DNA from: Terriglobia bacterium
GTDB taxonomy: Bacteria; Acidobacteriota; Terriglobia; UBA7540
Direction of reading: 5' to 3'
NCBI GenBank assembly: GCA_030042795.1
Contig: JASHYZ010000277.1
Span: 1 to 10,254 of the forward strand
Length of the DNA stretch: 10,254 bases
Made by a program: the position numbers and the translations under genes. Below, piece by piece: positions 852 through 5,040 of this stretch (positions are counted from its first letter, which is position 1; each line of letters opens with the position of its first letter). The notes under the pieces are model-generated. The model saw only the letters and a program-made list of their open reading frames with translations, ran no database searches and was not told where the DNA came from.

Positions 852-1281
852 GCCGATAGACCCGCACACCATTCAATTCGGCGGGCTTGGTTGCGCGGGT
901 CCTACCGGTTTGATTTCGCTTTTAACGGTGAACAGCTTGAAATTGAAATAAAGATGACGGTTTCGATACATCTGCCCGTTGTAGATGGAGGTGACGATAA
1001 CTTCCCGGGGCAACCACAGCGCGGCTGCCGCCTGCGGAATGTGGACCTCGCCGAATTGAATATCGGTGGTCGATCTTTCGAGGCCGATGTCGAGGCGCGG
1101 CTCCAAAAGATCGAGGCGCAGCCTCACGATACGGTAAGTTTTCGCGTCGATCCATGCTACGCCTTGATACAACAGGAGCACAGACCTTCCTTCAGCGTTT
1201 GCGTAACCCTTTAACGCAGCCTCGCTGGGCCGCTCGGCGAAAGCGATGGCGTACCGGATGCCACTGGCGGATGTCTGCTCT

Positions 1282-1289
1282 CCGAGATA
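1282..1289. repeat. Target-site duplication, left copy
   Basis: CCGAGATA directly abuts the left terminal inverted repeat and is identical to 1451-1458. On the coding (minus) strand it reads TATCTCGG and encodes the YLG of the interrupted protein. Confidence 0.75.
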
Positions 1290-1450
1290 CGTAGTGGTGT
1301 CATTTGCTCTCAAAGACCACTCTCGAAGCGCAGTCATTCCCGCGAAGCGGGAATCTATTTGCTCGATGCAGTATTTCCAAGAACTTGCACAATGGATTCC
1401 CGCTTTCGCGGGAATGACTGCGCTCACGGACTTCAAATGACACCAGTACC
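1290..1450. mobile_element. MITE-like non-autonomous element, 161 bp
   Basis: The ends are inverted repeats: CGTAGTGGTGTCATTTG at 1290-1306 and, on the opposite strand, GGTACTGGTGTCATTTG at 1450-1434 (15 of 17 identical, the inner 12 perfect). The element is flanked by an exact 8-bp direct repeat CCGAGATA (1282-1289 and 1451-1458), as expected of transposase-mediated target duplication. It carries no coding capacity for a transposase, so it would need one in trans. Inside lie two facing copies of a palindromic repeat. It sits within a protein gene and shifts its frame. I cannot assign a transposase family; those producing 8-bp duplications are the candidates. Confidence 0.8.
1328..1423. repeat. 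Facing pair of ATTCCCGCG/CGCGGGAAT palindromic repeats
   Basis: One copy (1328-1355) runs GCGCAGTCATTCCCGCG, AA, GCGGGAATC; the other (1395-1423) is its reverse complement with one extra A in the loop. Each copy is itself a hairpin and the two face each other across about 39 nt. When translated the family gives the familiar VIPAKAGIH and HSRESGN peptide strings, a widespread interspersed repeat in many bacterial genomes. Here the pair makes up the core of the insertion element. Confidence 0.75.
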
Positions 1451-1458
1451 CCGAGATA
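1451..1458. repeat. Target-site duplication, right copy
   Basis: CCGAGATA directly abuts the right terminal inverted repeat and matches 1282-1289 in all 8 bases. The next base on either side differs between the two copies, so 8 bp is the full extent. Confidence 0.75.
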
Positions 1459-2042
1459 ACGAAAGTTGACCAAGGATTGATTCACAGGATAAAAGAGAAG
1501 CCACAAGGAGGCGAAGTCCTTCGTAAAGTTGAAGCCTTCACCGACGCCCATTGAATCCACCGGCCTCATTCGAGCGTCTGTCCGATACTCCTGGAGGCTT
1601 TCCACCGGCCCATCATGGTTGACGGTGATCAGATAATTGAAGTCGTGTTGCGTTGTCGATCTCGCCCGGCCGTCGTCATCGCATTGCTCTTGGGTGATGC
1701 GCTCTTCCGCCGCAACGCTGGGGAGATTTTGATAAAGCTGCTCGACCGTAACACCAACTTTACTTAGGATCGTAGGAAGCTCTTGCTGGCTGGCAGCAGG
1801 TTCGAGACCTTTCAATTCCGGAAAGTCGGCTAGCAGCTCCCCGAAAGGGAGATCGATGATGGTGTAGGCGTTCTTATAATACGACCCCTCTTCTGCCTGT
1901 GGCGCTGGCAAGGCTCCAAGGGCTGAGGCCAAATATCCCGGATCCTGCCCTATCTCGATCGCGAACAGAAGTGCTGCGAGGCCAAGCGCCGCCAGAATGT
2001 TGGGGTGCGATATACCGCGCACCGGTGTGCTGATCCTGAACA

Positions 2043-2644
2043 CTATCGATTAACCTTCTTCATGTCTTTGACCAACATGGCAAAAGGGCTTCTCAGCGCG
2101 TCCTTGGTTGTGCCGTCGAGGACCTGGCTCTCAGCACGATAGAACAGCCTGATGGAGGCTTTGTCGTAGAGCAGTAGCACGGACTGCGAACCGCGCCGAA
2201 CGCTCACGGCTGTGCCAGCCGCGACGGGGCCCGGCATCTCCTCAAGAACATGGATCCTCGAGAAATGGATCCTGGCTACCGCATCGGCCTTCGCGCAGTC
2301 ATCCACGAGTTGCCAGGGAAGGTGGCCGAGCAGTTTCTTGGGCCCGCTCTCCTTGGCCAGAAACTCCTTCACCTCGGCTGCCTGGGAGCTTTCCATGTGG
2401 TTCAAGTCCACGCAGTAGCTCCTGGCGTGTTCGAGAGCGTCTGCGTCAAAGATTGCGCCACGCCCGCGCGAATTGTGGGAGCCGCTTGGTGAGCCTCAAT
2501 TGACTGGGGCAGTCTCGCGCCCAAACCTCCACCTGCGACCCCTGGAACCTGCGCAGCGGCGACAGCGGGTTGAAGGCAGGGAATGCACATCCTCGCGACG
2601 ACATCAGCGGCTAAGACAACTGCCGACAAGAAACAGGAATTCAC
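2043..2644 (-). pseudogene. Hypothetical secreted protein gene split by a frameshift
   Basis: The downstream part (minus strand, open from about 2488 to the stop at 2043-2045) encodes a plausible conserved segment: AIFDADALEHARSYCVDL, later VSVRRGSQSVLLLYDKASIRLFYRAE, ending SPFAMLVKDMKKVNR. It has no good start; GTG 2411 and ATG 2396 both cut into the likely domain and lack a ribosome site. In another frame, GTG 2644 has a GGGAGGG site 7 nt upstream and begins with a signal-peptide-like stretch ending AVAAAQ; that frame dies at 2402-2404. The span of 602 nt is one base short of a whole number of codons, so a single-base loss somewhere in about 2430-2490 would explain both halves (about 200 residues when intact). 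It might instead be a base-calling error. It lies directly upstream of the element-interrupted gene, so both members of this pair appear broken. Confidence 0.5.
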
Positions 2645-2777: not shown

Positions 2778-2802
2778 CCAAGAAGCTCGTGAGGTCTGCG
2801 CG

Positions 2803-3945
2803 ATGAGCGACAAGCGGGAGAGGGTTCGAGCACTGGTCGTCGATGACGAAGCGGCCGTGGTCACGCTGCTCTGCGCACGACTCACCATGGAGGGCTACGA
2901 ATCCAAAGGCGTCTCAAACGCCGAGGAGGCGCAGGCGCGGCTCGAGGAGGAACACTTTGACCTGGTGATCTGTGATTTGCGAATGCCCGGGATGTCGGGG
3001 CTAGAACTGTTAAAGGAAGTCCGCGTCCGGTTCCCTCACCTGGCGTTCATTATATGTACGGGCGAGGACGATGTACGAACCGGCATCGAAGCGATGAAGC
3101 AGGGAGCGGCAGACTATCTGGTAAAGCCCTTGCAGCTCGATGGAATGATGGCAAGCATTGTGCGTGCGCTCGACAAGCAACGGCTGACCATTGAGCTTGA
3201 ACAGTACCGGGGCCGCCTTGAAGATATGGTCGAGCAACGCACGCGGCAGTTGAAATCAGCCATCGCGCGCATCGAACATACCTACGACGAGACGCTGGCC
3301 GCGTTGGGCGGAGCGCTCGAACTCCGCGACATTGAGACCCAAGGACACTCGCGACGTGTCACCCACTATTGCCTCGAAATGGCGCGCGCCATGCAGTGCT
3401 CGAACGAGGATTTGCGCACCATCGCCCGTGGCTCGTTTCTGCACGATATCGGCAAAATCGGGATTCCCGATGCCATCCTTTTGAAGCCTGACCGCCTGAG
3501 CGAAGCAGAGACCGCCGTGATGCAGACGCACGCCCGCATCGGATACGAGCTTGTGTGCAGGATTGCCTTCCTGACGCCTGCAGCCCAAATCGTCCTAACG
3601 CACCAAGAGCGCTGGGACGGCACCGGGTACCCGCAGGGCTTGCGAGGCAAGGAGATTCCTCTGGGCGCACGCATCTTTTCGGTGGCAGACACCCTGGATG
3701 CCATGACGTCCGATCGCCCGTACCGTTCGGCCTTGTCGTTTGCCGCGGCACGCGAGGAAATTGCACGCCAAGCCGGCCGCCAGTTTGATCCCGACGTTGT
3801 AGCAGTCTTTATGGCGATTCCCGAGGAGGTATGGCGCAAAATCCGGCGCGAGGCTACCGAGCGCCCCCAGTTCGCGGTGGCGGCTCTTACGGGCTCCAGC
3901 GGCAGGCTCGACACTGCCCTTGAGGGACTGGCGGTTGCTCGGTAA
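2803..3945 (+). CDS. Response regulator with HD-GYP domain (cyclic-di-GMP phosphodiesterase)
   Basis: A 380-residue cytoplasmic two-component output protein. Residues 9-125 form a receiver domain: acidic pair D14-D15, phosphoacceptor D58 in ICDLRMPG, T86 and K108 in VKPL. A helical linker (about 126-160, EQYRGRLEDMVEQR) leads to an HD-GYP domain with E173-R-D, E178, H182, the HD pair H214-D215 with K218, H243, H267 and GYP at 275-277, then ADTLDAMTSDRPYR. Such domains hydrolyse cyclic-di-GMP. The usual HHE is HQE here (Q268), which removes one expected metal ligand, so activity or metal content may differ. Start at ATG 2803 is supported by TGAGG 8 nt upstream and the promoter just before; the frame stays open back to 2473 without homology. 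No sensor kinase is adjacent. It precedes the GGEEF regulator by 141 bp. Confidence 0.92.
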   Translation: MSDKRERVRALVVDDEAAVVTLLCARLTMEGYESKGVSNAEEAQARLEEEHFDLVICDLRMPGMSGLELLKEVRVRFPHLAFIICTGEDDVRTGIEAMKQGAADYLVKPLQLDGMMASIVRALDKQRLTIELEQYRGRLEDMVEQRTRQLKSAIARIEHTYDETLAALGGALELRDIETQGHSRRVTHYCLEMARAMQCSNEDLRTIARGSFLHDIGKIGIPDAILLKPDRLSEAETAVMQTHARIGYELVCRIAFLTPAAQIVLTHQERWDGTGYPQGLRGKEIPLGARIFSVADTLDAMTSDRPYRSALSFAAAREEIARQAGRQFDPDVVAVFMAIPEEVWRKIRREATERPQFAVAALTGSSGRLDTALEGLAVAR

Positions 3946-4086
3946 CTTCTTCGGGATGATCGATGCAGCCCAAAAGCCGCTCGCGTGATTTAACTTCTCG
4001 CTGCGTCGCATCTCGTAACGGTTTTAGGTCGCCGTTTTTAGAAGATCAGGTTCTCGCGGCGTGCCACCCGGAAAAGCCTCAAGACC

Positions 4087-5040
4087 ATGGCGAAGACGAA
4101 AGTATTGATTGCTGAGGATGACCCGATTTCTCTTCGCGTGGTGGAGACCATGTTGAAGAAGTGGGGTTACGAGCCGGTGTTGGCTCACGATGGTGAAGAG
4201 GCTTTGCGAGCCCTCCAGAGCGAGGATCCGCCACGAATCGCTATCCTCGATTGGATGATGCCGCGCAAGGACGGAATCTCCGTCTGCCGCGAGCTGCGCC
4301 AGCAGACTGACCGCGCTTATGTTTACATTCTGCTTCTGACAGCAAGATCGCAGCAGCGAGATTTGGTGGAGGGGTTAGGAGCGGGTGCCGACGATTACCT
4401 CACCAAGCCCTATAGTGGTGACGAACTGCGCGCGCGCTTATTTTCGGGCGAGCGCATTCTGGAGGTGCAGCAACAACTTGTAGCCGCCCGCGAGGCGTTA
4501 CGGATGCAAGCCATCCGCGACCCCCTGACGGGGCTGTTCAACCGGCGCTACATGGGGGAAGCGTTGGAGCGGGAACTACGGCGCGCTGAGCATGGCGGCC
4601 AGCCGCTCAGCATGATTATGTTGGACGTCGATCACTTCAAGCGCTTCAATGATACGTCGGGCCACCAGGCTGGCGACGATCTACTCGTCCACATCGGCTC
4701 CTTGCTGCAGGCTCGGACGAGGCGCGAAGACATCGCGTGCCGCTATGGCGGAGAGGAGTTTCTCTTGATTCTTCCAGGCGCGCCGCTCGAGGCTGCTCTT
4801 CGCCGGGCTGAGGAACTACGCTGCCAGATGCGCGAGACCACGGTGGAGCACCGGGGCCAGCCGCTTAGCCGCATCAGCGTGTCGGCGGGTGTCGCCTGCT
4901 TTCCTGACCACGGTACGACTGCTGACGAATTGCTTCGCGCTGCCGATACGGCGCTGTATCGCGCTAAAGAACTCGGCCGGGACCGTGTGGAGGCATGCGA
5001 GCGGCCGGTGCCAATGACGGCGCCGGCGCCACTGGGATAA
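4087..5040 (+). CDS. Response regulator with GGDEF domain (diguanylate cyclase, PleD/WspR-like)
   Basis: A 317-residue cytoplasmic protein predicted to make cyclic-di-GMP from two GTP when phosphorylated. Receiver domain at about residues 5-120: E10-D11-D12, phosphoacceptor D55 in ILDWMMP, T85, K107 in TKPY. A short coiled linker (122-140) precedes a GGDEF domain beginning at DPLTGLFNRRY (145-155), with DVDHFKRFND (180-189), GHQAGDDLL and the active-site motif GGEEF at 221-225. The inhibitory I-site RxxD is intact (R212 to D215, five residues before GGEEF), so product feedback inhibition is expected. ATG 4087 is the first codon of the conserved fold; only a loose GGAAA lies about 11 nt upstream. 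It follows the HD-GYP regulator on the same strand, suggesting opposing control of one messenger. It converges on the thiolase gene with a 26-bp gap. Confidence 0.94.
   Translation: MAKTKVLIAEDDPISLRVVETMLKKWGYEPVLAHDGEEALRALQSEDPPRIAILDWMMPRKDGISVCRELRQQTDRAYVYILLLTARSQQRDLVEGLGAGADDYLTKPYSGDELRARLFSGERILEVQQQLVAAREALRMQAIRDPLTGLFNRRYMGEALERELRRAEHGGQPLSMIMLDVDHFKRFNDTSGHQAGDDLLVHIGSLLQARTRREDIACRYGGEEFLLILPGAPLEAALRRAEELRCQMRETTVEHRGQPLSRISVSAGVACFPDHGTTADELLRAADTALYRAKELGRDRVEACERPVPMTAPAPLG

Follow-up and report, generated by a model that had tools for sequence, protein, structure and literature searches.

The window, meaning the whole stretch of 10,254 nucleotides analysed here (contig JASHYZ010000277.1 of the Terriglobia assembly GCA_030042795.1), contains a minus-strand gene that is split by a 161-bp element at positions 1290-1450, and this element is abutted on each side by one copy of the octamer CCGAGATA (Table 1). 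The octamer occurs at only these two places in the window, and its reverse complement does not occur there. The 17-bp inverted ends of the element (CGTAGTGGTGTCATTTG on the left and, reading inward, GGTACTGGTGTCATTTG on the right) match at 15 of 17 positions, with mismatches at positions 1 and 5 and the inner 12 bp perfect; a recount of these features agrees with an earlier sequence-only reading of the locus, which had given the same length, ends and identical octamers. When the window was randomised 300 times by a first-order Markov model, octamer-flanked inverted ends with at least 13 of 17 matches appeared in three randomisations, and the maximum was 14 of 17. The element is short and non-coding, and no transposase domain was found among the 10 window proteins scanned, in keeping with the earlier statement that it carries no transposase.

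Table 1. Features of the element and of the gene that it interrupts (window coordinates)
Feature	Position	Strand	Basis
Interrupted gene, 3' part	873..1289	-	in frame once 1290-1458 is removed
Left target-site duplication CCGAGATA	1282..1289	.	sole two occurrences in the window; family-wide 8/9-bp duplications
Left 17-bp terminal inverted repeat CGTAGTGGTGTCATTTG	1290..1306	+	1 mismatch to the family end GGTRSTGGTGTCATTTG
CGTC-1-type REP hairpin (dRS3-like), GTC + ATTCCCGC-GAA-GCGGGAAT + C	1333..1355	+	sequence; family definition as worded in passages of PMC3733652
Second REP hairpin, inverted to the first; tags outward, tails inward	1395..1418	-	inverted repeats in the window
Right 17-bp terminal inverted repeat GGTACTGGTGTCATTTG (read inward)	1434..1450	-	perfect match to the family end GGTRSTGGTGTCATTTG
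Right target-site duplication CCGAGATA	1451..1458	.	octamer repeat of 1282..1289
Interrupted gene, 5' part	1459..2043	-	GTG start at 2043; joined frame and homologue alignments; no Pfam family

The insertion can be undone on paper as follows: the two minus-strand frames present in the window, 2043 to 1300 and 1436 to 873, are each part gene and part element, and removal of the element plus one octamer yields a single 333-codon frame from the GTG at 2043 to a stop at 873-875. The N-terminal piece of this gene has homologues in 28 of 40 genomes of the order to which genome G001 belongs, and the joined protein aligns over the junction (NFR, then YLGEQT) in all 20 homologous loci fetched, in 19 of them with no gap within 15 residues and in nine gap-free from end to end; these loci are family members, 34-43% identical, and not counterparts of this exact site in sister strains. 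An empty target site, the lack of which the sequence-only reading had named as evidence against an insertion, is thus recognisable at the level of the gene family. The exception among the 20, locus L338 (G020:C51), has a large alignment gap about 7 residues from the window's insertion point. The frame that remains after the insertion has 247 codons and ends within the element, and the function of the gene has most likely been lost. The pieces scanned gave no Pfam or NCBIfam name for its family.

Two neighbouring features of the window may be mentioned here. A 122-aa minus-strand frame (2043-2411) that belongs to no Pfam or NCBIfam family adjoins the interrupted gene, and its stop shares a base with the GTG start of that gene, so the two may be translationally coupled. 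Farther away on the plus strand (2797-5040), a response regulator with an HD_5/HD domain is followed by one with a GGDEF domain, and these are possibly adjacent c-di-GMP enzymes of opposing activity.

Inside the element there are two inverted hairpins of the CGTC repetitive extragenic palindrome (REP) type. The right REP has the 8-bp ATTCCCGC stem and 4-nt loop by which CGTC-1 REPs are defined, and the left REP has a 3-nt loop; both tags in the window read AGTC, in which GTC is retained, and CGTC itself is present in the REP pair of another locus (L298, below). The passages of PMC3733652 that define these repeats allow the tag variants TGTC and CCTC, equate the neisserial dRS3 repeat with CGTC-1, and place CGTC repeats in five phyla, Acidobacteria not among them. 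Likeness to the repeats described there extends to the stem, the 3-4-nt loop, the GTC tag, the occurrence as dimers and the CCA tail, which here is on the right-hand copy; the difference is that the present dimer is enclosed in a transposon whose transposition signature is defined. According to the same passages of this 2013 survey, CGTC REPs are apparently without a dedicated transposase, and whether RAYTs or other transposases move them is left open. The core region of the window element matches database records of Legionella, Neisseria, Azospirillum and others. A plasmid collection gave 32 records and a phage collection three, none of which covers 80% of the query; the matches listed, which include 20 of the 32 plasmid records, are to the inner REP part of the element.

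Is the window element one of a dispersed family? A search of a genome contig collection with the single exact pattern GGTGTCATTTG-N5..35-GTCATTCCCGC gave 72 loci, 69 of them from Acidobacteria/Terriglobia metagenome-assembled genomes (MAGs; fen_180, gp13 AA73 and AA74, SRVP_9, JOPF041), and the three from other phyla are probably chance matches; in viral contigs the same pattern gave none. The 12-mer TGGTGTCATTTG occurs 116 times in five MITE-bearing genomes compared with once for its reversed control, and a 14-base form of the end was found in 11 of the 40 genomes of the order, its control being found at one place. From the loci fetched, which were mostly chosen by a match to end plus REP or came from genomes so found, we collected 72 distinct end-pairs at distances of 60-400 bp, counting the window's own pair and leaving out those with N in their flanks; the commonest length was 171 bp (26 of 72). 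Direct duplications of 8 or 9 bp with at most one mismatch flank 30 of these 72 pairs, compared with 0.18 expected from permuted flanks. Fifteen of the duplications are exact (eleven of 8 bp, four of 9 bp), and exact duplications of 5, 6, 7 or 10 bp are each absent from the 72 pairs. No recognisable duplication is present at the other 42, which may reflect decay, deletion or mispairing. The 8-bp duplication that the sequence-only reading had given as the signature of the element therefore stands for the window copy, and family-wide it has to be widened to 8 or 9 bp.

Copies have two different ends beyond the 17 bp, and their flanking sequence differs from copy to copy. Mean pairwise identity among 38 copies of 165-176 bp is 75.5%, and the window copy, at best 76.7% identical to these, has the 17-bp ends and the REP pair in common with them and different spacers. 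Of the 30 elements with a verified duplication, 11 have an open frame of at least 200 codons across the empty site, a count that was made with no control and has little bearing on gene disruption in general. The above measurements demonstrate that the feature at 1282-1458 is a genuine miniature inverted-repeat transposable element (MITE) with its target duplication, as the sequence-only reading had proposed in calling it non-autonomous; it is neither single-copy nor alone in its termini, the two findings that this reading had named as speaking against it. Among the papers listed by a literature search, which did not extend to ISfinder, none was seen to describe this family.

Ends and REPs each occur without the other. 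Two intact REP stem patterns are present in 11 of the elements with a verified duplication, one in 13 and none in six; the share of 24 in 30 is not a natural frequency, because the loci were mostly found by a pattern that includes part of the REP. When 22 regions of G001 (L131-L152) were instead chosen by ends only, an intact REP stem lay within 200 bp inward of 16 of 28 exact end cores. Outside the order, a REP stem was found within 200 bp inward of none of 30 ends of the same type (type I, GGTRSTGGTGTCATTTG), so the ends move without REPs, and the REP-carrying form was seen in this one order only. Counted from the REPs, which was done for genomes G001 and G002, an exact end core is present within 180 bp of 44 of the 64 REPs in G001; among the remaining 20, 15 (in 10 regions) are accompanied on one or both sides, at the usual 41-42-bp distance, by an end with no more than 4 mismatches, and five have no such end. 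The corresponding figure for G002 is 23 of 76, with 53 away from exact ends; 25 further G002 regions, which cover part of these 53, gave five with ends at the usual spacing, two (L295 and L296) with an end-like match at another spacing and 18 with none, among them L298, a REP pair without recognisable ends. REPs thus occur with and without a surrounding element, and transposition of these MITEs carries REP pairs along.

Several small elements have type I ends around unrelated cores. For example, L079:1368-1589 (G013:C18), a type I MITE of 222 bp, is flanked by an exact 9-bp duplication, CGGAAGCCA, and its large palindromic core is unrelated to CGTC REPs; L077, L084 and L258 also have type I ends and unrelated cores, without a duplication. 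Of two alternative cores compared with the plasmid collection, that of L079 matched no record and the other a single weak one. Palindromicity z values of the cores are −5.7 for L079, −5.9 for L089, −3.0 for L084, −2.3 for L117, −2.0 for L101, −1.4 for L258 and −0.8 for L077, those of larger elements of 459, 330, 811 and 706 bp range from −0.4 to 0.4, and 40 control stretches gave a mean of −0.17 and a minimum of −1.3. Because palindromicity is this uneven, we do not claim palindromes in all small elements.

Ends of this kind also bound larger, transposase-bearing elements of 2.4-3.2 kb. A degenerate pattern that combines the MITE end with the sister end GGTRSTGKYSTMATTTG matched in 84 of 399 genomes sampled from the larger class, compared with six places in all for the reversed control, and among the places listed there were opposed pairs 1-3 kb apart. 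Ends were paired and accompanied by a duplication (exact in 14 regions, otherwise with one mismatch) in 16 of the 20 regions fetched, and these elements are 330 to 3151 bp long; the remaining four are L224, L233, L235 and L237, of which L224 has both ends and no duplication. In L220, L221, L238, L255 and L256, type I ends (GGTAGTGGTGTCATTTG and close variants) enclose a transposase frame of about 270 codons; both ends are perfect in two of the five, L238, L255 and L256 each have a single mismatch in one end, and the duplication is exact in four and matches at 7 of 8 positions in L255. In L219, type I ends enclose no more than the remnant of a transposase. Type II ends (GGTAGTGTCCTAATTTG or a one-letter variant) enclose the transposase frames of L222-L226, and L243 and L248 are bounded by ends of a third type, GGTAGTGTCCTAGTTTG, with a further mismatch at one end of L248. 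The sequence-only reading had suggested looking for a full insertion sequence (IS) with the same ends, and such elements were found, in genomes of the class that are not the MITE-rich ones.

In a tree of 17 transposases, those with end types I (5), II (5) and III (2) each fall on one side of a branch, with support of 100/99, 100/100 and 100/100, respectively. This agreement covers 12 rows, since five were given no end type, and the sample is small and includes near-copies (L238 and L256, 92%). The correspondence of three end types with three well-supported transposase groups argues that transposase and end type have evolved together.

Insertion sequences of the IS1 family generate 8-9 bp target duplications and have inverted ends that start with GG; classical IS1 has two overlapping frames, insA and insB, joined by a programmed frameshift, and single-ORF IS1 relatives exist in ISfinder. 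IS1595 and IS1 are reportedly both treated by Siguier et al. in 2009. For all seven transposases scanned the top NCBIfam match was the IS1 model NF033558 (E 7e-15 to 1e-20), at scores of 55-74 bits that lie below its cut-off of 100, and scores to Pfam PF03400 (DDE_Tnp_IS1; cut-off 24.1) range from 21 to 34.6, above the cut-off for some copies and below it for others; for these reasons we call the enzyme IS1-like and not IS1. A database search with the transposase scored 8000 candidates, all at E <0.001, and among the 120 listed many are named IS1 family transposase and two are from Candidatus Acidoferrum. The alignment shows conserved D, D and E residues, which may form the catalytic triad. 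The transposase is a single uninterrupted frame of about 270 codons and not the two frames of classical IS1, and both the MITEs and the larger elements have the 8-9 bp duplication. The predicted structure of a relative was poor (mean pLDDT 52.8) and no use was made of it, and no solved structure gave a sequence match. Compared with the IS1 family, and with tIS (IS with passenger genes) as described in PMC7986276, these elements are alike in having IS1 as the top curated profile, 8-9 bp duplications and ends that start with GG, and different in their single ORF, their length of 2.3-3.2 kb, their extra frames (passenger genes are present in those scanned) and a score below the IS1 equivalog cut-off.

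Passengers and relatives of these elements merit separate description. L232:4144-6543 (G044:C4) is a 2400-bp element with type I ends (one mismatch in the right end) and an exact 8-bp duplication that carries a D12-class DNA methyltransferase (PF02086; PADLOC MTase_II, E 2e-152) beside a 304-aa frame and has no match to the helper transposases; it is possibly a mobile restriction-modification cassette. In the transposase-bearing type I element L221:828-3649 (G113:C12) there is an NYN-domain passenger that matches PADLOC HEC-09 (E 3.5e-74). Two frames recur in the type II elements L222, L225 and L228: a distantly related passenger of about 310-360 aa (24-32% identical) that matches no Pfam family, and a conserved one of about 100 aa, which in transposase-bearing copies is downstream of the transposase. 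At L168:118-2475 (also L064; G001:C462) a MITE-like sister element, whose ends are GGTAGTGTCCTAATTTG and whose duplication is GGATTTCC, is itself split by a 2.1-kb IS1595-type element, which duplicated CTAATTTG inside the MITE's own end.

Which transposase moves the MITEs? Since the ends are shared and the duplication lengths are equal, we infer that the type I IS1-like enzyme is the likely helper type, and very probably the 161-bp MITE was moved by such a transposase in trans with the REP pair as a passenger. The type I transposase, supplied in trans, would bind the two ends of the element and insert it by way of an 8- or 9-bp staggered cut that duplicates the target; in the present case the element has landed in a chromosomal gene of an acidobacterium with duplication of 8 bp, and the inverted CGTC-1 REP pair that it carries would have no role in transposition. 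The same argument from shared ends and equal duplication lengths is used for the parent IS of MITEAba12 in the part of PMC6382973 that treats it. That element resembles ours as described there: it is short, has no coding capacity, shares imperfect inverted ends of 16-17 bp with a transposase-bearing element (ISAba12) and can break a gene, with a duplication of 9 bp there and of 8 or 9 bp here. Our element differs from it in its ends (GGTRSTGGTGTCATTTG), IS1-like helper, CGTC-REP core and host group, and, whereas ISAba12 is co-resident with its MITE by that account, the type I parent is known here from other genomes of the class. MITEs are a known kind of element, of which the present one is a variant; its broken gene, the IS1-like helper group with its correspondence to end types and the REP-pair core are additions to what had been read from the window.

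The type I transposases come from genomes of the class other than the MITE-bearing genomes of the order. Of the order's 40 genomes, 27 have a relative of these transposases or a fragment of one, and 27 of 30 transposase loci fetched from it gave a usable match, with best identities to the type I set of at most 55%, compared with 65-92% within that set. No type I ends were seen on both sides of the order's transposases in flanks of about 1.5-3 kb, beyond which distant ends could be missed, and a scan of the 11 MITE-bearing genomes with the IS1 profile gave three weak partial matches, which are relatives of the helper. Multicopy 3-kb elements are easily lost from fragmented assemblies, and the MITE-bearing MAGs consist of many contigs each.

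Could the MITE instead be moved by an IS1595, IS256, IS6 or ISKra4 enzyme, all of which make 8/9-bp duplications, its end likeness to the IS1-like elements being convergence? Such enzymes are at hand in the 11 MITE-bearing genomes (matches to IS1595 in eight, to IS256 in seven, to IS6-type in seven with two over the cut-off and to ISKra4 in five with two over the cut-off), and the 17-bp ends are the only sequence seen in common between the MITEs and the larger elements. In the loci scanned, however, whose flanks were limited, none of these transposases lies between MITE ends: no MITE end was found on both sides of an IS1595 or IS256 transposase at up to 5 mismatches or of an ISKra4 transposase at up to 6, and IS6-type loci scanned for any end-pair plus duplication gave no such match; IS6, our initial helper candidate, was dropped. 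The IS1595-type elements there end differently (GGCAYCAATATAG...), and chance would not be expected to place the same ends, with duplications, around five related IS1-like transposases. We therefore regard this explanation as improbable.

A second alternative makes the core a REP- or REPIN-like unit moved by a RAYT-type or other REP-specific enzyme, the outer ends being incidental. CGTC-type REPs without ends do exist, as the 53 G002 REPs and the L298 pair described above attest, but the duplications abut the outer ends and not the REPs in 30 elements, the six elements without an intact REP stem and the unrelated core of L079 are bounded in the same way, and none of the 30 type I ends outside the order has a REP stem within 200 bp inward. 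The parts of PMC3733652 on CGTC REPs also report no transposase associated with them, and such an origin is very improbable. That the element is no transposon at all, and rather a structured RNA, or a hairpin resembling a terminator, that multiplied through recombination or gene conversion, is scarcely credible in spite of its very stable predicted fold (−54.7 kcal/mol as single-stranded DNA, z = −11.5, equalled by none of 200 shuffles), since the target-site duplications already contradict it, as do the interrupted frame and the differing flanks among copies, and no Rfam family matches the element at threshold.

Movement of the MITE by the type I IS1-like transposase can be taken one step further, and we do so only tentatively. 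The IS1-type ends could be a dispersal vehicle, in which naked REP dimers were captured repeatedly and independently and then spread by the DDE transposase in trans. The window copy, which has the ends and REPs of the 171-bp subfamily and different spacers, would then be a separate capture, and the palindromic cores within the type I ends of L079, L084 and L089 would be further captures. We rate such capture lower, as rather unlikely, because none of the 30 type I ends outside the order carries a REP.

These elements provide a testable case of REP pairs that move inside IS1-type ends and leave target duplications. If repeated capture did take place, it would explain, for this clade at least, the movement of a REP superfamily that has no transposase of its own. 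Since type I ends also flank gene-carrying elements, including the 2.4-kb methyltransferase unit, a single end sequence connects the MITEs, the REPs and the mobile accessory genes of soil acidobacteria.
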